From contig JAKOVW010000031.1 in assembly GCA_029781865.1 (NCBI GenBank), forward strand, positions 62,001-126,000: a stretch of DNA of 64,000 nucleotides, read 5' to 3'. The notes beneath the pieces were generated by a model, which saw only the letters and a program-made list of their open reading frames with translations, made no database searches and was not told where the DNA came from. Position numbers and translations under genes: made by a program. This document shows, piece by piece, positions 31,956-49,193 of the stretch (its first letter is position 1; each line of letters opens with the position of its first letter). Origin of the DNA: Bacteroidota bacterium (GTDB lineage Bacteria; Bacteroidota; Bacteroidia; Chitinophagales; Saprospiraceae).

Positions 31956-31977
31956 ATTAAATGAAAATTGAAAGAAT

Positions 31978-31992
31978 TTTATTGGGATTCAT
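31978..31992. repeat. 15-bp near-direct repeat, left border of the split cus segment
   Basis: tttattgggattcat here and tttattgttattcat at 39535-39549 match in 13 of 15 bases in the same orientation. They sit exactly at the stop of the N-terminal cusA half and the start of the C-terminal cusA half. Confidence 0.6.
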
Positions 31993-33256
31993 TTAAATGA
32001 GCATCACTTAGATGCCGGTATGCATTTTCAACCATTACGATGCCATCATCCACAATTACTCCAATGGCCAATGCAATTCCTGTGAGTGACATGATGTTGG
32101 AAGAAAAACCAAATGCATTTAATAGGATGAAAGCTGACGCGACTGAAATGGGAATTTGGACAAGTATAATGATGGCACTTCTCCAATGAAACAGAAATAA
32201 TAATATAATGATCGTAACACTAATGAATACTTCCACTAATGTTTCTTTTACAGAACTAATTGCTTCTTCAATTAAACCGCTTCTATCATAATCGATATGA
32301 AATTTTACGCCCTCGGGTAATCCTTTTTGCACATCATCCATTTTTACTTTTATTTGTTTAATAACAGCATCTGCATTTTCACCATAACGCATGACGACGA
32401 TACCGCCTACCTTTTCTCCTTCCCCATTCTGATCAAAAATTCCATAACGAATGTCTCCACCCATTTGCACGGAACCGACATCTTTAATGCGGATTGGTAC
32501 ATTGTTTGAATTGCTTATAGAAATATTTTCAATTTCATTGATTGATTTAATATAACCCAACCCACGAACAATATATGCCTTGTCACTCATTTCAAATTTT
32601 CGTCCACCCACATCATTGTTATTGGATTTGATAGATTTTAGCACATCCATCATAGAGAGATTGTAGTAATTCAATTTGACCGGATCAATAATGGCCTGAT
32701 ATTGTTTTTGAAAACCACCAAATGAAGCCACTTCACTCACACCAGGCACAGTTTGCAAAGCAAATTTAATGTACCAGTCTTGCATAGCACGTTGTTCACC
32801 TAAGTCAAATCCTTTTGCATCCAGGGTGTACCAAAAAATATGCCCTACTCCTGTACCATCAGGTCCCAGCGTTGGTGTAATCCCTTCGGGCAGGAGTTTT
32901 TGTGCAAAGTTTAATCGCTCAGCTACTCTGGTTCGTGCCCAATAAATGTCAACATTATCTTCGAACACGAGATACACGAAGCTCATACCAAACATAGATG
33001 CACCTCTAATATTTTTTAGTTTGGGAATACCCTGAAGATTAGCCACTAACGGATAGGTAACCTGGTCTTCCAATACCTGAGGACTTCTACCCATCCATTC
33101 AGTAAAAACAATCACTTGATTTTCGGATAGGTCCGGAATGGCATCCACTGGATTATGTTGTACCTCGTAGATACCCCAACCGAAAAGTCCACCGGCAATC
33201 AGCAGGACTACCAACCTATTGCGCAATGAAAATGTAATAAACCAATCTACCATCAT
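31979..33256 (-). CDS. cusA: CusA/CzcA heavy-metal RND pump, N-terminal half (split gene)
   Basis: A 425-residue ORF covering the first part of a heavy-metal RND permease: TM1 (LVVLLIAGGLFGWGI), the first periplasmic porter domain (NPVDAIPDLSENQVIVFTEW, FGGFQKQYQAIIDP) and TM2-TM4 with the proton-relay Asp pair in AIGVIVDDGIVMVENA. It then stops (TAA) in the cytoplasmic loop after TM4. The missing part, starting DNKERIKLIEKSSKQVGP, is the separate ORF 4.4 kb upstream in transcription. No frameshift or decay is visible, so a two-piece pump is possible. It starts 1 nt after the small metal-binding gene. Confidence 0.9.
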   Translation of the reverse strand: MMVDWFITFSLRNRLVVLLIAGGLFGWGIYEVQHNPVDAIPDLSENQVIVFTEWMGRSPQVLEDQVTYPLVANLQGIPKLKNIRGASMFGMSFVYLVFEDNVDIYWARTRVAERLNFAQKLLPEGITPTLGPDGTGVGHIFWYTLDAKGFDLGEQRAMQDWYIKFALQTVPGVSEVASFGGFQKQYQAIIDPVKLNYYNLSMMDVLKSIKSNNNDVGGRKFEMSDKAYIVRGLGYIKSINEIENISISNSNNVPIRIKDVGSVQMGGDIRYGIFDQNGEGEKVGGIVVMRYGENADAVIKQIKVKMDDVQKGLPEGVKFHIDYDRSGLIEEAISSVKETLVEVFISVTIIILLFLFHWRSAIIILVQIPISVASAFILLNAFGFSSNIMSLTGIALAIGVIVDDGIVMVENAYRHLSDAHLNESQ

Positions 33257-33526
33257 TTAATGTTTAATTATTGATTCCAGATCCATCCCGCATACTGGGC
33301 AGGCTCCGGATTTATCTGAAATTACTTCAAGATCCATAGGGCATTGATAATAAGACTGTCCGCTTTTTAAGGTTGTAGTATCAAATTTGAATTGTTGTAC
33401 CGCATTCTCTTTTTTTATTGGTTCTGAAGCAGCAGGTTCATTTTTAATTGGCTCATTCTTTGAAGCCGGATTGTTACAAGAAGCAAGAATTAAAAAAAAT
33501 ACGGAAATCATCATTGCGTTTTTCAT
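33257..33526 (-). CDS. Small lipoprotein with heavy-metal-binding (YHS-like) domain
   Basis: An 89-residue lipoprotein. MKNAMMISVFFLILASCNN gives a type II signal peptide with lipobox LASC; a longer start at 33535 is possible. A charged linker of Pro-Ile-Lys-Asn-Glu repeats leads to a zinc-ribbon-like metal-binding domain, YYQCPMDLEVISDK followed by CPVCGMDLE. Such domains are common in periplasmic parts of copper/silver efflux systems and may pass metal to the pump. It lies between the second adaptor and the N-terminal cusA half. Confidence 0.85.
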   Translation of the reverse strand: MKNAMMISVFFLILASCNNPASKNEPIKNEPAASEPIKKENAVQQFKFDTTTLKSGQSYYQCPMDLEVISDKSGACPVCGMDLESIIKH

Positions 33527-33548
33527 TATATACATAGTTTAAGATTTA

Positions 33549-34988
33549 TTACATTTTCATACCCGGCATATCCTGGTGACCTTCCATTGGATTTGCACCT
33601 TTTTTAAATATATACTCACTGTTTAATAAATAAGCACCCGAGATAACTACGATATCACCTTCAATCAAACCTTCCAAAATTTCAATTTCACGGTTGTTTT
33701 GAATGCCAATGGTTACCATTCTGTTTTCGAATACACCATCTTTGTTTAATATCCACACATTTGCTCCGTTGCTGTCCTGATTTATTGCATCCAATGGAAT
33801 CGTAATTGATTTATTTTTTTCTGTTTGCAAAGAGATATTTGCCATCATTCCGGGTTTTATCTGTTGAGAAGGATTTGTAATTAGAAATCGGGCTATTACA
33901 AATCGCTCCGGCGATTGCAATTGGGGATCAATAAAAATTACCTTGCCGTTAAACATTTTTTGACTTGCAGCGGGTATTGATAATTTAGCTTCAGTTCCAA
34001 TTTTTAAAAAGGGTAAATAGGGCAGATATACCTGAGCTTCTACCCATAAAGAACCAAGCGAATTAAATTGAAAAAGTGTAGTACCTACCGCGACATAGTT
34101 GCCTTCAACAACCGGTATTTCAATTACATAGGCATTTGTGGATGCATAAACTGGAACTGAATGCAATACCTGGTTTGAAAATTTTAATTGATTGATTTGC
34201 CCTTCGCTCATACCATACAATAGCAATTTGTTTTTAGAAGCTTCGCTAAATTCCTCCTGTGAAGTATTTTTATGATTTGCAAGAAGGTATTCTTGTTGCG
34301 CAATATTTAAATCCTCACTATAAATTTCGTATAGTAATTGCCCTTTTTTAATAAAATCACCTACATTTTTCACCGCCAATTTTTCAATTCGGCCCTGAAC
34401 TCTTGAGCTTATTGCAGTGGATAGGTTTTGATCAATAGTTACTCTCCCTGTAAGTGTGATTTTTTTAGTTAGCACGGATGTCCGAACAGTATCTAAGGTG
34501 ATATTACCTAGGCTGATTTGTTGCGAACTAAGTTTTATCTGACCCGATTTCAGATTATTCTTTTTTACTTTAATAAGTTTCATGTGACAAATAGGACAGT
34601 TGCCTGCTTTGTTTTCTATCACCTGAGGGTCCATTGAGCAGGTGTAGTATTCATCATCACCGGCCATTTCCGCAGGATGGTTTTTTGGGTTGCATGATGA
34701 TAAAAGGAAGAGACAAGAGGCAAGAGGCAAGAGGTAAGAGGCAATGGGCAGGAGGAAGTTTGCAATTTGCAGTTTGAAGATTGCGGTTGCCAAGAAGCGG
34801 GGAGAAAGAGTCGATTTGAATATGTAATTTAGATTTATTTTTTTCCAAATGGCAAAATGCAAATAAATTACTTTTCTAAAAAACAACTTAGAATCTTTAG
34901 GAATATTTATCCAGAAATAAAATGGCAAGGTATAATTCGGAATAGCCTTCACATTATTTGTTGCCATTATTTTATTATTAATTAACAT
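33549..34988 (-). CDS. HlyD/CusB-type efflux adaptor with N-terminal metal-binding domain
   Basis: A periplasmic membrane-fusion protein of 479 residues as drawn. Residues 1-~65 look like translated non-coding DNA. A heptamer array (34702-34792) then encodes a periodic stretch (LLPIASYLLPLASC) that runs into a lipobox LLSSC at Cys99. The mature part has a metal-binding domain (YYTCSMDPQVIENK ... CPICHMKLI) and then adaptor domains: barrel/lipoyl (LYEIYSEDLNIAQQEYL), helical hairpin and membrane-proximal parts, ending LNSEYIFKKGANPMEGHQD. It links the RND pump to the outer-membrane channel. The real start codon is unclear. Confidence 0.85.
   Translation of the reverse strand: MLINNKIMATNNVKAIPNYTLPFYFWINIPKDSKLFFRKVIYLHFAIWKKINLNYIFKSTLSPRFLATAIFKLQIANFLLPIASYLLPLASCLFLLSSCNPKNHPAEMAGDDEYYTCSMDPQVIENKAGNCPICHMKLIKVKKNNLKSGQIKLSSQQISLGNITLDTVRTSVLTKKITLTGRVTIDQNLSTAISSRVQGRIEKLAVKNVGDFIKKGQLLYEIYSEDLNIAQQEYLLANHKNTSQEEFSEASKNKLLLYGMSEGQINQLKFSNQVLHSVPVYASTNAYVIEIPVVEGNYVAVGTTLFQFNSLGSLWVEAQVYLPYLPFLKIGTEAKLSIPAASQKMFNGKVIFIDPQLQSPERFVIARFLITNPSQQIKPGMMANISLQTEKNKSITIPLDAINQDSNGANVWILNKDGVFENRMVTIGIQNNREIEILEGLIEGDIVVISGAYLLNSEYIFKKGANPMEGHQDMPGMKM
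34702..34792. repeat. Heptamer array inside the signal-peptide region of the second adaptor
   Basis: Thirteen consecutive 7-nt units in perfect register, drifting from agaggca-like (34716-34743) through gtttgca/atttgca to gttgcca. Read on the minus strand in frame, 21 nt make 7 codons, giving the 7-residue period LLPIASY-LLPLASC-LFLLSSC of a lipoprotein signal peptide. Confidence 0.8.
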
Positions 34989-35021
34989 TATTGCTAGATA
35001 CTTTTGCCAATTGCATATTGC

Positions 35022-36338
35022 TCATTGAATTTTAATAAAGCTTTCACTATCTATCATAAATTGAGCATTATATGCAACCTGTTCATCGTTTTGCAAACCG
35101 CTTATGATTTGAATTAGGGAATCGGATAAATAACCAGAGCGTATTGATTTTGTAATGAAATGATTTTTGGTTTTTAGAAATACGATGTCATTTTGTCCTA
35201 AGCTAATTACAGCAGAACGGGGCAGCCACCAACCATTAATTTGAGTAGTAGTAATTTTAGCTGAAAGAAGTGTTCCGATTTTCAAATGTAGATTTTCTTC
35301 ATTTTTCAAATAAACTCTTGCTTTGATTGCAAATGTTTTTTGTACGGTTACCGGTTCGATATAGTTGATATGTGCATAGATTGTTTTGGTTGGATTTGAT
35401 TCCGTAATGATGGACACAGGATCACCCGTTTTTATAAGCGCAGCATCATTAGGAAAAATATTGATTACTGCCCAAACCTGATCAATATTATAAATTGCAA
35501 AAACCGGTTGTCCGCTTTCTACATACATCCCTTCTTTAATGGTTAGAGCAGAGGATTGAGCTGATGGAATATTTTCAATTTGTACCTGGGAAGTTGAAGA
35601 AGCATTACTATTCATTCCTGAATTCACACCTGTATTCATGGCGGATGGAGCATTTTGGTTGCCGGTAATCCCTATATCGTGAATATGACCACTGTATGGA
35701 CTGTAAACAGGTAATGGATTAATCAACTGCTTTGTTTTTTCAATTTGTTTTATTTGTGCATCTGATAAGCCAAACAATTGCAATTTACGTTTGGTCGAAT
35801 TAATTAGCAAAACATCAGATTCGTTATTCTTTAAAAGGTCAATTAAATTTTGTTGGGAAGTTAAAATATCCGGACTATAGATGTCCATGATGCGTTGTCC
35901 TTTTGAAATGTTTTCAAAATTAAACCTTGGATATAATTTTTCAATTCGTCCACTGAATCTTGCACTTATATTGTTAATTAAACGAGGATCATAAGAAATT
36001 AATCCCGTTGCATTCAATACAGGAGTAATGGATTGTTGTATTGGCGAAATTGTTTTTATTTCACTGAAAACGGTTTGATTGGTTGGTTGTTCCAATCCAT
36101 CTAATGTGCCTGACTTGCCGGAATTTATATGTTTGTGTTCATCTTTTACATGACAAGCGGAGAAGCAGGCAATAAACAATAGGCAATTGACAAAGCTCAA
36201 TAAATAGTTGGCAATTGCTCCCGAAGTCTTTCCGGACCAATTGCCTATTGCTTGTTGCTCCCGAAGGCTATAGGGACTCCTTGCTCCTTGCCTCTTGCTT
36301 CTTGCCGAATTCCTACCGTATTTCCATTTCCCTTTCAT
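35022..36338 (-). CDS. HlyD/CusB-type efflux adaptor lipoprotein
   Basis: A 438-residue membrane-fusion protein. A lipobox-bearing signal peptide (LLSFVNCLLFIACFSAC, Cys about residue 60) is followed by HVKDEHKH, then lipoyl/barrel features (RFSGRIEKLYPRFNFENISKG), a helical hairpin (SQQNLIDLLKN) and VKYS-like adaptor strands. Residues 10-45 precede the signal peptide and are encoded by repeat DNA (NSARSKRQGARSPYSLREQQ), so the native start is uncertain. It overlaps the end of tolC by 26 bp and probably assembles with the split CusA and that TolC. Confidence 0.87.
   Translation of the reverse strand: MKGKWKYGRNSARSKRQGARSPYSLREQQAIGNWSGKTSGAIANYLLSFVNCLLFIACFSACHVKDEHKHINSGKSGTLDGLEQPTNQTVFSEIKTISPIQQSITPVLNATGLISYDPRLINNISARFSGRIEKLYPRFNFENISKGQRIMDIYSPDILTSQQNLIDLLKNNESDVLLINSTKRKLQLFGLSDAQIKQIEKTKQLINPLPVYSPYSGHIHDIGITGNQNAPSAMNTGVNSGMNSNASSTSQVQIENIPSAQSSALTIKEGMYVESGQPVFAIYNIDQVWAVINIFPNDAALIKTGDPVSIITESNPTKTIYAHINYIEPVTVQKTFAIKARVYLKNEENLHLKIGTLLSAKITTTQINGWWLPRSAVISLGQNDIVFLKTKNHFITKSIRSGYLSDSLIQIISGLQNDEQVAYNAQFMIDSESFIKIQ
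36162..36307. repeat. Inverted pair of heptamer arrays in the 5' part of the first adaptor gene
   Basis: The left array (36162-36217) has eight 7-nt units near gcaatag. The right one (36238-36307) has ten units in register near ctattgc/cttgctt. The inner arms caataaacaataggcaattg (36170-36189) and caattgcctattgcttgttg (36238-36257) pair with only two mismatches over 20 bp. The sequence ctcccgaag appears twice in and next to the centre. The left array encodes the signal peptide of the adaptor. Confidence 0.8.
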
Positions 36339-37650
36339 AGTCCACTTGTAATTTCAGAAATAGATTCAACTGATCAAGTTCATTTATTTTGGCCATCCTG
36401 TACATTTTCAACCCATCCAGAACCACAAATAAATCTTCCGTATTTTGCTCATATGCATGCATGGAAGATTGGTAACTTTTAGAGTAGGCAGGAATGATGT
36501 TGATTGTATAATTATTTAATTGCTGTTTTGCAGATAGTAGTTGAGTTTGTAAGGATGCAATCATTCCTGTTGTTTCATTTAAGATGGATTGTTTTTGGTA
36601 GTTGAGTGCATTCACATTATTATCAAGGCCTTTAATTCTGGATTTATATTCTTTGGAAGCCCAGGGAACGATAGGAATAGTTACCATGCCCATAAGTGAA
36701 AATTGATTGGGAACAGTGCCTAATGATTGCATGTGATTAATTGAAACTCCAAATTCTGGAAGCCTTTTTGAATATTCATATTGTTCTTGAAGTTTTACCA
36801 ATCCAATGTTTGCATCTAGTTGTTTGATATCGCTACGCGCACTTGATATTAAAGAAGTATCCGGTAATTGCAATTCGTAATTGTGCAACAGAAGGGTGGT
36901 GTCAACTTCAAACACGAATGATTTGTCAATATTCATGAGTGTGTTGAGTTCAACATTTTTCATTCTCATGTCATTGAACATCATGATCTCCATGTTTCGC
37001 AATTCATACAGATCAGCCTGTGCTTTATAAATCGTGTTTAGTTTCTCTTTATTATAAGTATATCTGAGTTGAGCCACCTGCACAATGTAATTTAAAAGGG
37101 AATCTGTTTGAATCAAGACATCATATTTCTTTTTAATTACAATCCACTCAAAGTAATTGCGTTTCGCCATAGCAAATAATTCGTTTTTCTTTGCCGCTTT
37201 TCCATGTTGCTCAATAGAAGCCATGCCTTTCATCAAATTATAATTCGCATTTTGTTTCGTTCGGTTCGGTATCATTTGTTCACCTGTAATCATCCACATA
37301 CCATCTTTAAAACTACTATAAGGAGTTTGCCAGGGACCTGTTGAAAGGGTAGGTGGCATCCAGGCTTTTGCCATTTCAGCATTCTCGTTTATAGCAAATA
37401 TTTGTTCATCATACATTTTGAACATCGGATTATTGTCCTCCATTCTGTTTAAAACAGAATCAAGTGTGAGAATCTGGGAAGAGGAAGAAGTAGGAAATAG
37501 GAAAGTAGCAATAGACAATAGGCTATAGGAAAGGGGCCCGGAGAGCTTTCGGGAGTATTTGGCAAAGGGAAAGAAATAATTTAAGAAAGATTTTGATTCT
37601 CTTGCTTTTTGCCGATTGCCAATTGCCACTTTTATTTTAGAGTTCTTCAT
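36313..37650 (-). CDS. TolC-like outer membrane efflux channel
   Basis: A 445-residue outer-membrane factor. It has a signal peptide (LLSIATFLFPTSSSSQ) and two long coiled-coil halves of the OEP fold with typical VTIPIVPWASKEYKSRI and IASLQTQLLSAKQQL. It forms the outer-membrane exit of the tripartite metal efflux pump. The ATG at 37677 is open but the one at 37650 gives a smaller overlap with the cusA C-terminal half. The 5' region to about residue 60 is built from heptamer repeats (37476-37531 and 37599-37626), so the start is uncertain. Confidence 0.87.
   Translation of the reverse strand: MKNSKIKVAIGNRQKARESKSFLNYFFPFAKYSRKLSGPLSYSLLSIATFLFPTSSSSQILTLDSVLNRMEDNNPMFKMYDEQIFAINENAEMAKAWMPPTLSTGPWQTPYSSFKDGMWMITGEQMIPNRTKQNANYNLMKGMASIEQHGKAAKKNELFAMAKRNYFEWIVIKKKYDVLIQTDSLLNYIVQVAQLRYTYNKEKLNTIYKAQADLYELRNMEIMMFNDMRMKNVELNTLMNIDKSFVFEVDTTLLLHNYELQLPDTSLISSARSDIKQLDANIGLVKLQEQYEYSKRLPEFGVSINHMQSLGTVPNQFSLMGMVTIPIVPWASKEYKSRIKGLDNNVNALNYQKQSILNETTGMIASLQTQLLSAKQQLNNYTINIIPAYSKSYQSSMHAYEQNTEDLFVVLDGLKMYRMAKINELDQLNLFLKLQVDYEREMEIR
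37476..37626. repeat. Inverted pair of heptamer arrays in the 5' part of tolC
   Basis: Eight 7-nt units in register at 37476-37531 (ataggaa type) and four at 37599-37626 (ctcttgc to caattgc) in the opposite sense. The centre contains gagctttcgggag, like the cttcgggag found twice in the element in the adjacent adaptor gene. The first array encodes the core of the TolC signal peptide (SYSLLSIATFLFPT). Confidence 0.78.
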
Positions 37651-39535
37651 CTTTACCCGGTAATTTAATTTTTCCATGTTTTTTTAATTCCCGTTCTTTG
37701 GCTATTTCATAAATAACAGGTGTGACTAGCAATACATATATCGTTGAACTTAAAACTCCCCCAATTAATGGAATTGTGATTGGAAGCATGATGTCACTTC
37801 CGGTACCGGTTGCCCAAAGAATCGGAATCAGACCAAACAGCGATACAGAAACTGTCATTAATTTAGGGCGTAATCGTTGGACAGCGCCATCCATGATGTA
37901 TTTGCGCAAATCTTCTTTTGAAATCGTTGCTGACGAATTGCCTTTGTCCTTTACCAGTTTTTCCATATACTCATTCAGGTATATTGTCATCAACATGGCA
38001 GTTTCAATTGCTACGCCAAATAATGCAATAAACCCAACTGCAACCGCAACAGATAAATTTACTCCGTAGAAAAATACCATGTACACACCACCTATTAATG
38101 CAAATGGAACTGTGATCATGGTAAGTAATGCTTCTTTCAGCGATTTGTAGGTAAAATAAAGCACCATGAATATGATTAATAATACAATTGGCATGATCAA
38201 TGACAGTGTTTTATTTGCACGTATCTGATTTTCCCATTGGCCACTCCACTCCAGATTATATCCTTTTGGTAGTTTTGAAAAAAGTTTATTCAACTTGTCT
38301 TGTGCTTCTTTTACAGTACTTCCAAGGTCTCGATCGCGGACATTAAATAAAACGGTTCCCCGCAACATAGCATTTTCAGAATTTATCATAGGCGGACCTT
38401 CTGATATTTTTACTTCAGCAATTGCTGAAAGCGGTATGGTCCCGTAATTGAATGTTTTTACAGGAATCTGATTGATAGCTTCTAAACTATTCCGGTAATC
38501 TTGTGCAAATCGAGCATTCACACTAAATCGTTGTCTGCCTTCAATGGTAGTGGTTATATTCATTCCTCCTAAAGCCGTTTCCACATACATGTTCACATCA
38601 TCTACGCTCAATCCGTATTTTCCGATTTCATTTTTCTTCACTGTGATGTCCACGTATCTACCGCCGGTAATCGGTTCAACATATAAATCTTTAATGCCGT
38701 TGATTCCTTGTAATTCATTTTTCATGTGGGTTGCCAGAATATATATGGAATCCAGATTTTGACCATATATTTTTAAGCCAACATCTGTCCGGATACCGGT
38801 CGATAACATGTTGATCCGGTTGATGATTGGTTGTGTGAATCCATTGACAACTCCGGTTATTTGCAATTTTGCATTTAATTCATTAATGATATCTTCTTTA
38901 GTTAAGCCGGTTCTCCAAGCCGTTTTTGGTTTTAAAAGAATAATGGTTTCGATCATACTGATTGGAGAGTTGTCGGTTGCGGTATTCGCCCTTCCTGCTT
39001 TTCCCAATACATTTTCAACCTCTGGTATCGATTTAATTATTTTGTCTTGAACCTGCAATATGCGTTTCACTTCAGAATTTGAAACATCGGGAAGGGTCAC
39101 GGGCATAAACAGAATGGAACCCTCATCCAAAGGAGGCATAAACTCGGAACCCATACGAAGCATCATGATAACACCAACACTAAGTGCAACAATATTTATG
39201 GCAAGCACAGTTTTACGCCATTTTAAACACCAGGCCAGAATAGGTGAATACATTTTCTCCAGAGTACGAGTTACAGGATTTGCATTTTCAGGTTTTAGTT
39301 TTCCTTTCAGAAATAACGAAATCAGAACAGGAGTTAATGAAATAGCAAGGAATGCATCTATGATAAGTATAAATGTTTTGGTCCAGGCAAGGGGATGAAA
39401 GAGTTTTCCTTCTATGCCGGTTAATAGAAACACAGGAAGAAAAGAGGTGATTACTACGATGGTTGAATAAAAGACTCCGGGGCCTACTTGTTTGGAGGAT
39501 TTTTCGATCAGTTTTATGCGCTCCTTGTTGTCCAT
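37637..39535 (-). CDS. cusA: CusA/CzcA heavy-metal RND pump, C-terminal half (split gene)
   Basis: A 632-residue ORF that starts MDNKERIKLIEKSSKQVGP, which aligns with the loop just before TM5 of intact CusA (E. coli has LDNK at that point), and runs through TM5-TM12 and the second porter domain to a normal C-terminus. Visible landmarks are FLPVFLLTGIEGKLFHPLAW, MPPLDEGSILFMPVT, ALIGGVYMVFFYGV and FGLIPILWATGTGSDIMLPI. Two stop codons lie in frame directly upstream, so it cannot be a fragment read from further up. It is the first gene of the cluster and overlaps tolC at its end. The partner half is at 31979-33256. Confidence 0.92.
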   Translation of the reverse strand: MDNKERIKLIEKSSKQVGPGVFYSTIVVITSFLPVFLLTGIEGKLFHPLAWTKTFILIIDAFLAISLTPVLISLFLKGKLKPENANPVTRTLEKMYSPILAWCLKWRKTVLAINIVALSVGVIMMLRMGSEFMPPLDEGSILFMPVTLPDVSNSEVKRILQVQDKIIKSIPEVENVLGKAGRANTATDNSPISMIETIILLKPKTAWRTGLTKEDIINELNAKLQITGVVNGFTQPIINRINMLSTGIRTDVGLKIYGQNLDSIYILATHMKNELQGINGIKDLYVEPITGGRYVDITVKKNEIGKYGLSVDDVNMYVETALGGMNITTTIEGRQRFSVNARFAQDYRNSLEAINQIPVKTFNYGTIPLSAIAEVKISEGPPMINSENAMLRGTVLFNVRDRDLGSTVKEAQDKLNKLFSKLPKGYNLEWSGQWENQIRANKTLSLIMPIVLLIIFMVLYFTYKSLKEALLTMITVPFALIGGVYMVFFYGVNLSVAVAVGFIALFGVAIETAMLMTIYLNEYMEKLVKDKGNSSATISKEDLRKYIMDGAVQRLRPKLMTVSVSLFGLIPILWATGTGSDIMLPITIPLIGGVLSSTIYVLLVTPVIYEIAKERELKKHGKIKLPGKDEEL

Positions 39536-39549
39536 TTATTGTTATTCAT
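39535..39549. repeat. 15-bp near-direct repeat, right border of the split cus segment
   Basis: tttattgttattcat, the partner of the copy at 31978-31992 (13 of 15 identical). It overlaps the ATG of the C-terminal cusA half by one base. Confidence 0.6.
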
Positions 39550-39737
39550 CCTTAATACTATTCTGTTAAATAAAATTAAGGAATTTCGATTAATTGATTT
39601 ATATAGGATTTAGTCCTGATTTAATAAATTGTAGATCATAGCAAGAACCGTTAAGATTAATCGTTTGCCAGTATAATAATATGCAAATGAGAATGCCATT
39701 CAATATATGCTCAACATTTTTGAATTGCATATAGTTT

Positions 39738-40811
39738 CTAAAACGGACTTTTGTATTCCGGATTAGTAATGTAAGTCGGGTCAGATAATGTTTTCAAAAA
39801 GGCAATCAAATCCGATTTATCCTGGTTGGAGAGATTCAGTCCCTTTAAATTGTTTAAAAGAAGATCACTGGAGGTATACGATTTTTTAACATTTGAATTG
39901 TAATGATCGATTACCTCTTCCAAAGTTTTGAACCTGCTGTCATGCATATATGGTGCCGTTAAAGAAATATTTCGGAGTGAAGGCACCTTAAATTTAGCTT
40001 TATCGAGATTATTATTACTAACATTATATCTGCCTAGATCTTTAAAATTAGCTTCTTCGTCGAGACCATTATTCAGGAATTCATTATTTGTAAAATTCGG
40101 GCCATTGTGACAATGAAAACATTCAGCTCCTTTAATATTGTTGGCTGGATCGGCCTCAGTAAAAAATAATTCCTTACCATGTAACTCTTCTGGTGTAAAA
40201 TTCACTTCACCTTTTAAGTATTTGTCGTATTTAGAATCATGACTTACAATGCTGATCATAAACTGTTCAATGGCAAGACTTATTTTTAAAGCATCCACAG
40301 AGTCAGTTCCAAAAGCACGGATAAATTGGTCTTTAAATTTTGGATCATTTTGGATTTTTGCTACCGCATTCGGTAAGGATTCATTCATTTCGAGTGGATC
40401 CTGAATTGGTTTTAAAGCCTGGTCTCTCAATAACGGTGCCCGACCATCCCAGAAGAATCCGTTGGTATGATAGGCGAGATTAAATAGTGCCATGGCGTTT
40501 CGCTTTCCTTCTTTTTTTTCTACGCCAATGCTGAAAGGCCTTATATCTGAGAAGGCATCCTTTTGTAAATGACAATCTGCACAAGCCTGAGTAAGATCTT
40601 TCGATAATTTTTTTTCATAAAACAACATTCTTCCCAGTTTAACTTTTGAAATGGTAAGTGTATTGTCTAAAGGAATGGCAGGATCAGGAAGATCTCCGTT
40701 CAGATTAAGGATATAAGGTGTAGTATCATAAACCGGTTTTACATCATCTTTACTGCAGGTAATCGTCATAAATAGAATAAAGACAAATGCAATAGCGAGC
40801 TGAATTTTCAT
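39738..40811 (-). CDS. Di-heme cytochrome c peroxidase / MauG-like lipoprotein (second of pair)
   Basis: A 357-residue periplasmic or surface di-heme protein with two c-type heme sites, CADCH (about residue 79) and CFHCH (about 229), and the MauG/CcpA landmarks LGRMLFYEKKLSKD, GKRNAMALFNLAYH, FFWDGRAPLL and KVPSLRNISLTAPYMHD. Its signal peptide ends in a lipobox-like TITCSK. Its start codon overlaps the stop of the preceding peroxidase gene by 4 bp. With MbnP as the first gene of the operon it may be an MbnH-type enzyme that oxidises a tryptophan of MbnP, or an ordinary H2O2 peroxidase. Confidence 0.9.
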   Translation of the reverse strand: MKIQLAIAFVFILFMTITCSKDDVKPVYDTTPYILNLNGDLPDPAIPLDNTLTISKVKLGRMLFYEKKLSKDLTQACADCHLQKDAFSDIRPFSIGVEKKEGKRNAMALFNLAYHTNGFFWDGRAPLLRDQALKPIQDPLEMNESLPNAVAKIQNDPKFKDQFIRAFGTDSVDALKISLAIEQFMISIVSHDSKYDKYLKGEVNFTPEELHGKELFFTEADPANNIKGAECFHCHNGPNFTNNEFLNNGLDEEANFKDLGRYNVSNNNLDKAKFKVPSLRNISLTAPYMHDSRFKTLEEVIDHYNSNVKKSYTSSDLLLNNLKGLNLSNQDKSDLIAFLKTLSDPTYITNPEYKSPF

Positions 40812-41824
40812 TGAATTCTAAAATTTGGATTGTTGATAAAATGATTATCCGTTAATGATTTTAAAAAATTGACAAGATCCTGTTTTTCTTGAGCTGTAAT
40901 TGTAAATCCGGTTATTAAAGGACTTTTGTGCGGATTGTTTTTGCCACCGGATGCGTAGTGTTCAATGATTTCTTCCAGTGAGTTTATGCTTCCATCGTGC
41001 ATGTAAGGATAAGTCACTTCAACATTACGAAGACTAGGTACTTTAAATAAGGAACGATCTTCTTCTTTATTGGTAAGGCGCATTCTGCCTAAATCCGGAT
41101 CGTCTTCATACAATCCATTATTGATAAATGCATAATTGCTAAAGTTGATTCCGGAATGACATTGACTGCATTTTAAAGCAGAACTGTTGAATAGCTTCAG
41201 GCCATTTTTTGCAGATGAGGATAGAGCGAGTTGATCTCCATTTATAAATTTATCATACGATGAATTACCACTAATTAAAGCTCTTTCAAAGCAGGCAATA
41301 GCACGTGTAATGACAAAAGGATCCGGTAGACGATTATAGGCTTGTAAGCACAAGTCTCGATAATTGGACTGGCGATTTAATTTGTCCGCAATCAGCAGAA
41401 TATTATCGTCAAATTCATTGTGTTCCTGAATGGGTACACCTACCTGCATTTCCAATGTTGGGACGCCACCTTCTCTTAATAAATAGGGTTGATAAACCAC
41501 ATTTCCAAGAGACGGTGCGTTGCGTGTGCCAATTCTTGACATGATTCCTTCGCTGACTTTCTTTCTGTCTGTGAAGGCAAATTCCGGTCTATGGCATGTT
41601 GCGCATGAAACCGTTGAATCGCTTGATAAGATGGGGTCATAAAACAACTTGCGTCCAAGTAGAAATCGGACTTCAGTAAATTCATTATCTGGTGGAAATG
41701 CTGGAATTGGAAACCCGGCAGGAACTTCAAAATAAGCTTCTACTTTTGTTTCTTCTTTTTGACATGATCCTATCATGAAAATTAGCAAGAAAACTATCCA
41801 TTGCATTTCAGGTTTCCAACCCAT
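40808..41824 (-). CDS. Di-heme cytochrome c peroxidase / MauG-like lipoprotein (first of pair)
   Basis: A 338-residue paralogue of the next gene. Heme motifs are CATCH (about residue 76) and CSQCH (about 221), with LGRKLFYDPILSSD, GTRNAPSLGNVVYQPYL and KVPSLRNVEVTYPYMHDGS. The lipobox is MIGSCQ. It lies 11 bp after MbnP in the same transcription unit. In methanobactin operons MbnP is paired with one MauG-like protein (MbnH); here there are two, which is unusual. Confidence 0.9.
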   Translation of the reverse strand: MGWKPEMQWIVFLLIFMIGSCQKEETKVEAYFEVPAGFPIPAFPPDNEFTEVRFLLGRKLFYDPILSSDSTVSCATCHRPEFAFTDRKKVSEGIMSRIGTRNAPSLGNVVYQPYLLREGGVPTLEMQVGVPIQEHNEFDDNILLIADKLNRQSNYRDLCLQAYNRLPDPFVITRAIACFERALISGNSSYDKFINGDQLALSSSAKNGLKLFNSSALKCSQCHSGINFSNYAFINNGLYEDDPDLGRMRLTNKEEDRSLFKVPSLRNVEVTYPYMHDGSINSLEEIIEHYASGGKNNPHKSPLITGFTITAQEKQDLVNFLKSLTDNHFINNPNFRIQ

Positions 41825-44828: not shown

Positions 44829-47800
44829 TTATTGATTAAGAAGATAATTAAGTGTGATTACGGATTGATTGTAATTATTTAGAGCCTGGAGATAGTTTTT
44901 CTTTATTTCATAGGACTGTGTAATATTTTGTATCAATTCCAAATAACCGATTTCACCAGCTTTATAAGATTTGATGGCTAATCCTGTCATAGTATTTGCC
45001 AAAGCCAGTCCATCGTTTGAGTAGTAAGTCAATTCTTCATAATTCTGATTAAATTGTTGCAATGCTTCCTGATAGAGATTGTTAAAACTTAACTTAAAAT
45101 GATCAAATTCAGCCTGAGTTATTTTTGTCTGAAGATTCGCTGCATTGACTTTACCCGCCTGACCTGTTTTGATAATTGGAATGGATGTGCCAATCACCCA
45201 ACCCCAGAAAGGGGTAACCTTGTCTATACTTTGATTAAAAGCACCGAACTGAAAAGCGGGATACCATTTTGATTTTTCGAGATTCCATTCTGCAATGCTT
45301 AGATTTACCTGCTGTTCTTCATATCGATATAGAGGATTTTCAGCGATCCTGTTTTTGTCAATGAGCAGAGGTGGAGCAAGGGCCTGAAAGCCTTGATCCT
45401 TGATTTTTATGGGAGAAGTTAGTCCTGTCCATTGTTGCAATGCACTTTGAGAAATTAAGATATCTTTCTCTGCCTGCAATTTCTGAAGTTGAATTTGTTT
45501 AAGCTGTGCCTCGGCATTTAGCTTTTCCAAAAGATTTGATTCGCCAAGTTGATATTTTTTACCGGCAAAATTTGTAAAGTCCTTGTATATACTATCCAAT
45601 TGAACATATAATTTTAATTTTTGCTCAGCACTAGCCAGGTTAAAATAGGCTGAAGAAACTTTTTGTATGAGTTCTTTTTGAGTAACATTTAATTTTGATT
45701 TGGACAAGGCAATTTTTAATTTCTGCAATTGAGTCTGCCTGGCAATTACAAATGGATTTTGAATTCCGGTCGTAATACTGAGATTGTAATCATTTTTACT
45801 ACTGTTTATTTGTCCTCTTTGATATTGTATACTAAAGGGGTCAATGGTAAAAGTAGTTTTCATCAATTGTTCCTGTTGTTGTATGGCAAGATTAGCGGAT
45901 TGTGATAGCGGATGATGGCTGAGGGCAATCGATATACAACTGTCCAGAGAAAGATCGCTATATATATCAGATGTTGTATTCTTTGAATCAGTAGATAAAA
46001 TTAGTGATGATTGTGATTTTAAATTATTGGGTAAAGAAGTACCATGTAAAACCAATAAAATACTTAATGCAGCGCCTTTTACGGAGAGCCTGTTATTTTT
46101 ACCAAACAGGGAGTACAATACAGGTAAAACAATAAGAGTTAGAAATGTCGATGAAATTAAACCGCCGATGACAACAGTGGCTAAAGGTTTTTGAACCTCA
46201 CTACCGGATGAAGTAGAAATTGCCATTGGCAAAAAACCTAATGAAGCTACTGCAGCAGTAGCCAATACGGGTCTTAAGCGGGCGGCAGTACCTTTCATTA
46301 TTCTTCGGGTAATATCGCCTTCACCATCTTTTTCCAATCGATTGAAATAAGAAATCAAAACAATGCCGTTTAATACTGCCACTCCAAACAAAGCAATAAA
46401 TCCAATTCCTGCACTTATACTAAAATTCATCCCACGAATATAGAGTGCAACTACACCACCAATTGCTGCCAAAGGGATGGCTGAAAAAATGATCAGCGAT
46501 TCGGTGAAAGACCGGAAGCTTAGGAATAACAATAGAAAAATGAGTAACAAAGCAACGGGGACGGCAATCATTAAGCGGTCCTTTGCTTCCTGTAAGTTTT
46601 GAAAGGTGCCACCATATTCAATATAGTAACCCGCCGGGAGCTTTAGATTTTTATGAAGGGCAATATTTATTTCTTCAACAACACTTTGAATGTCACGGTT
46701 GCGGACATTGGATTCGATAACGATTCTGCGTTCCCCGTTGTCTCTGCTGATTTGAGCGGGTGCTGATTTAAAAGAAACATCTGCTAACTGAGAAATCGGG
46801 ATTTGGCTGCCATTTGGCAATGAAATAAAAATATTTTTTACTTTTTCTATATCTGCATCATGGTAATCAGCATATCTGACCACGAGATCAAATTTTTTTT
46901 CACCCTCATATACAACGCCAGCCTTGCCACCGGCAAGCGCAGTATTTATGATTCTATTGGCATCTGCAATATTTAATCCGAACTGTGCTATTCTGTCGCG
47001 ATTCCATTTTACAATAAGTTGAGGCATTCCGATGATCTGTTCTACCTTAATATCGACGGCACCATTTATAGTACTGATTAATTTTGCTGTTTCATTTGCT
47101 TTCTCAAAAAGCACATCCAGATTGTCGCCAAATATTTTTATGGCAATGTCTGATTTGACACCGGCGATTAATTCATTAAACCGCATTTGGATGGGTTGCT
47201 CAAAGGATAAATTCACGCCTGGTATCACGGATAGTTTGTCATTCATCTTTTCTTCCAGATCTTCTCTGTTTTGTGTAGTCACCCAATCTTTTTTATCCTT
47301 CAGGACGATAATTAAGTCGGCGGATTCTATCGGCATCGGGTCAGTCGGTATTTCAGAAGTACCAATTTTTGAAACGACTTCAGATATTTCCGGAAAATTC
47401 TTCATGAGAATGTTTTCCAACTGCGTTCCAACCTCTATGGTTTGAGACAAGCTACTGCCCTGTCGGATTGTGTAGTTGGTTGCAAAATCGCCTTCATCCA
47501 GTTCAGGAATAAACTCTCCTCCCAATGAGTTGAAAAGCTGCATCGTCGCTATGAGTAGTAAGATAGAAAAGATCAATACGATGATTCTGTTTTTTAAAAA
47601 ATAGTTTAACGAGGGTGTATAAAATTTTTGAAGCCACGCCAAGAATCGTTCATTAAAAGTGATTTTTTCTTTTATACTTTTAGAAAGAAACAGGGAACTC
47701 ATTAGTGGGATGTAGGTTAAGGAAAGGATTAAAGCACCTATGATTGCAAAGCTGACGGTTAGCGCCATCGGTTTAAACATTTTGCCTTCAATTCCGACAA

Positions 47801-49193
47801 GAGCAAAAATGGGAACATAAACGATTAGGATGATGAATTGTCCGAATACTGCACTATTCATAATTTTAGAAGAAGAAGATATGATTTCGTGGTCCATTTG
47901 AGATTGGCTCAGCATTTTATTTTTAAACTTATCATGCAGTAAAAAGATAATGCTTTCTAAAATAATTACTGCTCCATCGACAATTAAACCAAAATCAAGA
48001 GCTCCCATGCTCATAAGATTTGCGGAGATGCCAAATGCATTCATCATAATGATTGCAAATAACATAGAAAGTGGTATGATCGAAGCGACTATGAGTCCCG
48101 CCTGAATATTACCTAGCATTAACACCAATATAAAGATCACAATGAGTGCACCGAGGAGCAAGTTGTGTTCTACAGTATCAATGGTGTTAGATATCAATTT
48201 AGTTCGATCTACAAAAACATCGATGTAAATGCCTTCCGGAAGTGATTTTTCCACCTGCTTCATTCTTTCTTTCACATTTTTAATGACTTGCATGGAGTTT
48301 TCACCTTTCATCATCAATACAATTCCACCTACAGTTTCACCAAGTCCATTCCTGGTCATTGCTCCGTAACGGGGTGCATAACCAAATTGAACTGTTGCAA
48401 GGTCTTTTATATAGACTGGCATATCATTTTTGGTGGATACAATAATTTTCTCGATATCGCTTAAAGAATTGATTAAGCCTTCGCCCCTGATAAAATAGAT
48501 ATTGGGACCCTTGTCTATGTAACTTCCACCCGTATTCTCATTGTTCGCACTTAATGCATCGTAGACTTGAAGCAGGGAAATGTTCATGCTGATTAATTTC
48601 CTGGGATCCACTGCAACTTCATATTGCTTTAGCTTGCCTCCAAAACTGCTTACTTCGGCAACTCCGGGGACCCCAAGCAATTGACGTTTGACAATCCAGT
48701 CCTGAAAAGTCCGTAAGTCCATTTCATTGTATAGTTTTTTATGCAAACTATCCACTTCCAGAGTGTATTGAAAAATTTCTCCAAGACCGGTTGTTGGTGG
48801 AAGCATTTCAGGAGAGCCGAAGGATTTGGGTATATCCTGATCCACTTTCTGTAATCTCTCGCTTACCAGTTGACGGGCATTGTTTACCGGAACATTTTCT
48901 TTAAAAACAAGTGTAATCACGGATAGCCCACTGCGTGAGGTGGAACGCAATTCAATTAAATCAGGCAGGTTTTTGAAATTGAGTTCAAGAGGATATGTTA
49001 TAAACTGTTCAATTTCCTGAGTAGCCAGATTGGGTGAAACTGTAATTACCTGCACCTGGTTATTGGTAACATCCGGCAAAGCATCGATGCTGAGCTGAGA
49101 AGCTGAGTAAACTCCAAGCACTACAAAGATCAATAATAATACTCCTGTAATGAATTTGTTGTTAACTGAAAATTGAATGATGCGATTAATCAT
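44829..49193 (-). CDS. CusA/CzcA heavy-metal RND pump fused to a TolC-like domain
   Basis: A 1454-residue fusion. Residues 1-~1030 are a complete heavy-metal RND permease with twelve transmembrane segments: FSVNNKFITGVLLLIFVVLG (TM1), QLSIDALPDVTNNQVQVIT, DFGLIVDGAVIILES (TM4 proton-relay Asp), GEFIPELDEGDFATNYTIRQ and AIGGVVALYIRGM. After a short linker that reads like a signal peptide (AALSILLVLHGTSLPNNLKSQ), residues ~1075-1454 are a TolC/OEP domain. Such fusions are known in Bacteroidota. The exported ion may be copper, silver, zinc or cobalt; the neighbours favour copper. Confidence 0.93.
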   Translation of the reverse strand: MINRIIQFSVNNKFITGVLLLIFVVLGVYSASQLSIDALPDVTNNQVQVITVSPNLATQEIEQFITYPLELNFKNLPDLIELRSTSRSGLSVITLVFKENVPVNNARQLVSERLQKVDQDIPKSFGSPEMLPPTTGLGEIFQYTLEVDSLHKKLYNEMDLRTFQDWIVKRQLLGVPGVAEVSSFGGKLKQYEVAVDPRKLISMNISLLQVYDALSANNENTGGSYIDKGPNIYFIRGEGLINSLSDIEKIIVSTKNDMPVYIKDLATVQFGYAPRYGAMTRNGLGETVGGIVLMMKGENSMQVIKNVKERMKQVEKSLPEGIYIDVFVDRTKLISNTIDTVEHNLLLGALIVIFILVLMLGNIQAGLIVASIIPLSMLFAIIMMNAFGISANLMSMGALDFGLIVDGAVIILESIIFLLHDKFKNKMLSQSQMDHEIISSSSKIMNSAVFGQFIILIVYVPIFALVGIEGKMFKPMALTVSFAIIGALILSLTYIPLMSSLFLSKSIKEKITFNERFLAWLQKFYTPSLNYFLKNRIIVLIFSILLLIATMQLFNSLGGEFIPELDEGDFATNYTIRQGSSLSQTIEVGTQLENILMKNFPEISEVVSKIGTSEIPTDPMPIESADLIIVLKDKKDWVTTQNREDLEEKMNDKLSVIPGVNLSFEQPIQMRFNELIAGVKSDIAIKIFGDNLDVLFEKANETAKLISTINGAVDIKVEQIIGMPQLIVKWNRDRIAQFGLNIADANRIINTALAGGKAGVVYEGEKKFDLVVRYADYHDADIEKVKNIFISLPNGSQIPISQLADVSFKSAPAQISRDNGERRIVIESNVRNRDIQSVVEEINIALHKNLKLPAGYYIEYGGTFQNLQEAKDRLMIAVPVALLLIFLLLFLSFRSFTESLIIFSAIPLAAIGGVVALYIRGMNFSISAGIGFIALFGVAVLNGIVLISYFNRLEKDGEGDITRRIMKGTAARLRPVLATAAVASLGFLPMAISTSSGSEVQKPLATVVIGGLISSTFLTLIVLPVLYSLFGKNNRLSVKGAALSILLVLHGTSLPNNLKSQSSLILSTDSKNTTSDIYSDLSLDSCISIALSHHPLSQSANLAIQQQEQLMKTTFTIDPFSIQYQRGQINSSKNDYNLSITTGIQNPFVIARQTQLQKLKIALSKSKLNVTQKELIQKVSSAYFNLASAEQKLKLYVQLDSIYKDFTNFAGKKYQLGESNLLEKLNAEAQLKQIQLQKLQAEKDILISQSALQQWTGLTSPIKIKDQGFQALAPPLLIDKNRIAENPLYRYEEQQVNLSIAEWNLEKSKWYPAFQFGAFNQSIDKVTPFWGWVIGTSIPIIKTGQAGKVNAANLQTKITQAEFDHFKLSFNNLYQEALQQFNQNYEELTYYSNDGLALANTMTGLAIKSYKAGEIGYLELIQNITQSYEIKKNYLQALNNYNQSVITLNYLLNQ

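Follow-up and report, generated by a model that had tools for sequence, protein, structure and literature searches.

The locus described here raises the question of whether a heavy-metal efflux pump of the resistance-nodulation-division (RND) superfamily can operate when its chain is encoded in two pieces that stand at opposite ends of a gene cluster. It lies in a stretch of 64,000 nucleotides (hereafter the window, to which all coordinates refer) from contig JAKOVW010000031.1 of assembly GCA_029781865.1, a member of the Saprospiraceae (Bacteroidota), in which six genes run in one direction on the minus strand: the C-terminal part of a CusA-like pump (C half), a TolC-like outer-membrane factor (tolC), two CusB-like adaptors (B1 and B2), a small heavy-metal-binding domain (HMBD) protein and the N-terminal part of the pump (N half). 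To our knowledge, metal pumps of the RND superfamily are regarded as single chains that contain an internal repeat. A preliminary description, made from the sequence alone, had read this cluster as a circular permutation that cut cusA into two clean halves. We find that the halves very probably (roughly 87%) make a functional two-polypeptide CusA and that the split preceded the rotation of the gene order.

Do the two genes amount to one CusA? Both open reading frames (ORFs) lie on the minus strand where the preliminary description had placed them, each running from ATG to stop: the C half, first gene of the cluster, at 37637-39535 (632 amino acids (aa); Pfam ACR_tran profile positions 418-1019) and the N half, the last gene, at 31979-33256 (425 aa; ACR_tran positions 1-419). 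In comparison with solved structures, the N half aligns to residues 8-427 of the E. coli CusA chain (6.3e-125) and the C half to residues 437-1044 (6.5e-162), which bears out the view that both together make one full pump; against TIGR00914 (CusA/CzcA) they cover positions 1-425 and 432-1043 of 1051, so that the whole RND length is matched. Hydropathy gives four peaks in the N half and eight in the C half rather than the single 12-segment chain of CusA/CzcA, in agreement with the cut proposed after transmembrane segment (TM) 4. The N half carries TM1-TM4, the first periplasmic domain and the relay Asp D403 (D405 of CusA), and the C half carries TM5-TM12, the second periplasmic domain, the three-Met metal site and the equivalents of the relay residues E939 and K984. 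The C half starts with MDNK where CusA has LDNK, as had been noted; the accompanying statement that no residues are lost is roughly right, but the TM4-TM5 loop itself varies in length, and the remark that the halves share a frame with one TAA between them carries no weight, since the frame relation of the halves is 0, 1 or 2 among relatives.

Each half is a gene of its own. With the first ATG taken as start, the arrangement of the N stop and the C start in adjacent pairs ranges from an overlap of as much as 53 nt, through direct contact, to a gap of as much as 591 nt, and all three frame relations occur. The aligned parts of the two halves are up to 842 nt apart, and two loci (L174 and L175) have an HMBD gene between the halves. 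Most of the 99 classifiable loci (not all from distinct genomes) read (HMBD-)N-C-tolC-B1-B2, and ten of them, the window included, read C-tolC-B1-B2-(HMBD-)N, one (L184) with the HMBD gene before C instead; an eleventh rotated case (L199, from G574) has a C half truncated at the start of its contig and a twelfth (G643) is known by coordinates only. The order C-tolC-B1-B2-HMBD-N of the window is therefore a rotation of the usual one, as had been claimed. The HMBD gene directly precedes N in many relatives, and the pair is kept together in six of the ten rotated clusters. In the window the halves are about 4.4 kb apart and in reversed order, with other genes between them, and because rotated clusters place C before N in this way, joining of the halves in cis is excluded. 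Readthrough or frameshifting as a means of joining is likewise ruled out by the varying frame relations, by the interposed HMBD gene and by the rotated order. We also considered a split intein, but no long added tail was seen by eye at the end of the N half or at the start of the C half, and Pfam gives only ACR_tran for both. Two further loci (L066 and L168, probably one genome) read tolC-B1-B2-HMBD-N-C, which is a third rotation; their tolC occupies two frames.

How far does the split extend beyond this genome? The search of related genomes that the preliminary description had recommended revealed that the same cut between TM4 and TM5 is widespread in Bacteroidota, with the halves usually side by side, N then C, and that intact forms are also present. 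We used samples of 9 genomes (genus), 398 (family), 395 (class) and 395 (phylum), which overlap, so that counts are not additive, and scored at most three candidates per genome in the C-half searches of the family, class and phylum samples and at most four in the N-half search of the class sample, so that counts are not totals. The genus sample holds the window and one adjacent split. In the family sample, 25 matches above 680 bits comprise 16 with a short C frame, 8 of full length and 1 at a contig edge. Of the 65 class-sample matches listed at E<=1e-150, 7 have a long C frame and 58 a short one (631-728 aa), and an N half was paired by hand on the same contig for all 58 short C halves; conversely, 60 short N frames with at least 57% identity divide into 51 that adjoin C, 8 that are permuted and 1 that a contig end truncates. 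Among the 130 phylum-sample matches listed, all 29 with at least 55% identity are short, and the 101 listed at 54% identity or less comprise 98 long frames (at least 1031 aa, in four cases with one TGA read through) and three shorter ones, one of which is a partial match. Both halves are annotated, side by side, on complete plasmids of Adhaeribacter swui, Runella slithyformis, Haliscomenobacter hydrossis and Hymenobacter sp. DG01, where RefSeq names each half "efflux RND transporter permease subunit"; on three of these plasmids the split has copper genes (multicopper oxidase, heavy-metal P-type ATPase, copper-binding protein) as neighbours. An intact cusA of Bacteroidota type also occurs on a 4.3-kb contig binned as Actinomycetota (L069), which is probably misbinned.

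Are both halves maintained as working parts? In CusA, the Cu(I)-binding residues are M573, M623, M672 and E625 and the relay residues D405, E939, K984 and T987 (according to the available part of PMC8092243). Their equivalents in the window include D403 in the N half and M144, M194, M243, E511 and K558 in the C half. The three-Met site (M144, M194 and M243 for M573, M623 and M672) is Met in all 122 rows of the alignment, and the equivalents of D405, E625, K984 and T987 are likewise kept in 122 of 122, that of K482 in 121 and that of E939 in 116. Between the window and nine permuted relatives, nonsynonymous divergence (dN) is 0.06-0.20 in both halves, and most ratios to synonymous divergence (dN/dS) are not computable because synonymous sites are near saturation (proportion of synonymous differences, pS, 0.71-0.94); the two computable ratios are 0.041 (C half, L041) and 0.030 (N half, L043). 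A pseudogene pair or non-functional remnant might be suspected from the TIGR00914 scores of the single halves (460 and 607, below the NCBI full-length cut-off of 701, a curated value set for the whole protein) and from Hymenobacter radiodurans, a distant relative whose C half is in two pieces. This explanation is hardly credible, however, given that both halves have open frames in ten permuted loci, the window included, that low dN accompanies saturated synonymous sites in both, that the metal-site residues are invariant, and that the halves co-occur for every one of the 58 C matches listed from the class sample. The earlier claim that neither half shows decay is upheld.

Could assembly or binning have produced the arrangement? 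The window comes from a 93-contig assembly and seven of its permuted relatives are metagenome-assembled genomes (MAGs), as this explanation would have it. On the other hand, ten other loci in separate assemblies have the order C-tolC-B1-B2-(HMBD)-N (one with its C half cut by a contig start), their neighbours are mostly different, with a few gene families common to 2-6 of the rotated loci, and the split itself is present in complete plasmid sequences. An artefact is the least credible of the explanations considered here, and the concern voiced in the preliminary description is thereby largely answered. The window genome, 99% complete, holds one close copy of the split pump, and the next closest CusA-like genes in it are unsplit (frames of 1043, 1463 and 1461 aa) and 34-35% identical, which speaks against an intact second copy collapsed in assembly.

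Did the rotation cut the gene, or was the gene already cut? We computed one tree for the C half and another for the N half, with quick searches and Shimodaira-Hasegawa-like approximate likelihood-ratio (SH-aLRT) support only, and rooted them at the midpoint, which falls between six intact rows of about 53% identity (family f84) and the rest. The permuted rows form one clade in each tree (support 100 for C and 99-100 for N), nested among split rows, and since the rotated clade lies inside the split family in both trees, the split came first. The proposal that circular permutation cut cusA was not sustained, as adjacent split pairs are the majority and the rotated clade nests among them. A one-piece cusA cut by the rotation itself in this lineage, through a circle or a transposition that left the halves usable by chance, would account for the cluster being an exact rotation and for the likeness of its ends, where the regions around the N stop (31969-32008) and the C start (39526-39565) share 13 of 15 bases, a match equalled in 1 of 300 random pairs. 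Against this stand the same cut in many relatives with adjacent halves, the nesting of the rotated clade inside them and the lack of remnants: tblastn with the six cluster proteins (E<=0.01, up to 3 kb of flank per side, ten permuted loci) returned no C or N remnants such as tandem duplication might leave; all matches were of HMBD type, and one of these involved the HMBD part of B2. We regard a cut by the rotation as highly improbable and as largely refuted. The similarity of the ends, considered as a mark of integration, is probably due to chance, and it need not date from the rotation, because relatives share the rotation. In L044, HMBD genes flank the rotated cluster on both sides, as an incompletely resolved duplication might leave them, a weak sign given that HMBD genes are common.

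The intact rows fall into the outgroup (the six rows of family f84) and into three or four places inside the trees. Placing all intact rows on one side of the C tree was rejected (approximately unbiased (AU) test, p-AU 1.9e-7) in a 46-row subset chosen by hand (11 intact versus 35), for a group already known from the tree when the test was made. Parsimony favours one old fission followed by three or four re-fusions. Repeated independent fissions at the same TM4-TM5 loop would also explain why intact forms occur at several places in the tree and why they cannot be gathered on one side, but they would take more events than one fission with three or four fusions. Moreover, in both length and sequence the loops of the nested intact forms are unlike one another and unlike those of the intact outgroup, as separate re-joinings would predict, bearing in mind that loops also diverge fast. 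We consider independent fissions unlikely, and prefer a single fission with later re-fusions.

Several observations weigh against the reading of a functional two-chain pump with this history. The equivalent of E939 is Gln in five adjacent-split rows (L139, L142-L145) and Lys in the permuted L038, changes that perhaps reflect altered coupling or sequence error. Of three methionine positions of CusA checked in the transmembrane region, M391 is kept in the window, where I replaces M403 and L replaces M486. In the more distant H. radiodurans the two-piece C-half match is covered only in part by the annotated gene, and is a broken copy or a sequence error. The permuted order comes from the 93-contig genome of the window, seven MAG contigs and further genome assemblies, and no complete isolate genome with this order was found. 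Finally, the root was set by midpoint, and a single fission with re-fusions rests on parsimony. In the C tree, the five Gln rows group together.

In the two-polypeptide pump that we favour, the N half (TM1-TM4 and the first periplasmic domain) and the C half (TM5-TM12 and the second) would be translated separately, both would insert in the inner membrane and pair, and three N + C pairs would form the usual RND trimer. Conserved residues and neighbouring genes suggest that this trimer exports Cu(I)/Ag(I) with a TolC-like channel and two CusB-like adaptors. The proton relay would be completed between chains, with the TM4 Asp contributed by the N half and the Glu and Lys by the C half; because the equivalent of D405 lies in the N half and those of E939 and K984 in the C half, the relay has to form between chains if the pump works. 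On this view a single early fission in this Bacteroidota subfamily would have yielded adjacent genes, typically in the order HMBD-N-C-tolC-B1-B2, and the intact forms nested inside the split family would stem from three or four re-fusions at a later time. One clade would then have acquired the rotated order C-tolC-B1-B2-HMBD-N, either because N and its HMBD gene moved together or because a tandem duplication was followed by complementary loss. Provided that the cluster works, the rotated arrangement would be a natural test that two polypeptides suffice.

The partners of a tripartite efflux system are encoded between the halves, all on the minus strand, as one OEP protein and two HlyD_D23 proteins by Pfam. 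The TolC/CusC-like outer-membrane factor (OEP) occupies 36313-37677, the periplasmic adaptor B1 (HlyD_D23) 35022-36338 and the second adaptor B2, which carries a heavy-metal-binding domain (HlyD_D23 and HMBD), 33549-34988. These coordinates are those of the longest ORFs, and the true start of the TolC-like protein may be further in, as most relatives align only from about residue 50-65. The small HMBD protein (92 aa, Pfam HMBD) is encoded at 33257-33535, and the ATG of the N half directly abuts its stop. Degenerate TTGCNNN heptamer arrays occur at three gene junctions of the cluster (35004-35024, 36241-36261, 36281-36308 and 37602-37629), whereas 20 shuffled windows gave a mean of 0.0. The whole genome contains the four-unit form at four places, two of them in this cluster, and the relative L039 has similar arrays near the tolC start and around HMBD/N. 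Two adjacent genes at 39738-41824 (minus strand) comprise a di-haem cytochrome c peroxidase (Pfam CCP_MauG) and a second gene that resembles it by eye (CxxCH motifs).

How does this pump compare with known systems? It resembles CusA of the E. coli CusCBA system (HME-RND; TIGR00914) in the full-length match of both halves, the three-Met site, the equivalents of the D405/E939/K984 relay and the TolC- and CusB-like partners. E. coli CusA is one polypeptide, whereas here there are two (4 + 8 TM), with two adaptors and with the halves at opposite ends of the cluster. The two-gene form of SecD/SecF, also of the RND superfamily, is common. This RND-fold transporter of two chains, which can likewise be fused into one, divides into 6 + 6 TM (available part of PMC8277102), whereas the CusA cut described here falls inside the first six-helix repeat (4 + 8); SecDF, moreover, aids the export of proteins rather than pumping metal. 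Another CusA/CzcA-family pump with altered chain architecture, an RND pump fused to a TolC-like domain (44829-49193, minus strand, 1454 aa, ACR_tran then OEP), lies about 5 kb from the split pump; it is a fusion, not a fission, so that fusion and fission occur in one neighbourhood. The preliminary description knew of no two-piece CusA, and in titles and the opening parts of abstracts, a search field with most subscription journals outside it and hence weak as a negative, we likewise found no description of one. The available part of PMC10434189, which treats CusA/CzcA genes of Bacteroides, contains nothing on a split.

Taken as a whole, the data make it likely that Bacteroidota harbour a widespread and stable two-chain RND metal pump whose relay forms between polypeptides, that the split freed the operon to rotate, and that the chain was re-fused more than once. 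As the halves share a generic name and each falls under the cut-off of the full-length CusA/CzcA model, copper/silver pumps of Bacteroidota may be miscounted. A natural, separate TM1-4 piece that contains the key relay helix (TM4) would provide a direct way to study the coupling of protons and metal, and the natural split also addresses how large membrane pumps tolerate fission and re-fusion. If this reading is true, the same pump exists naturally in one-piece, two-piece adjacent and two-piece distant versions.

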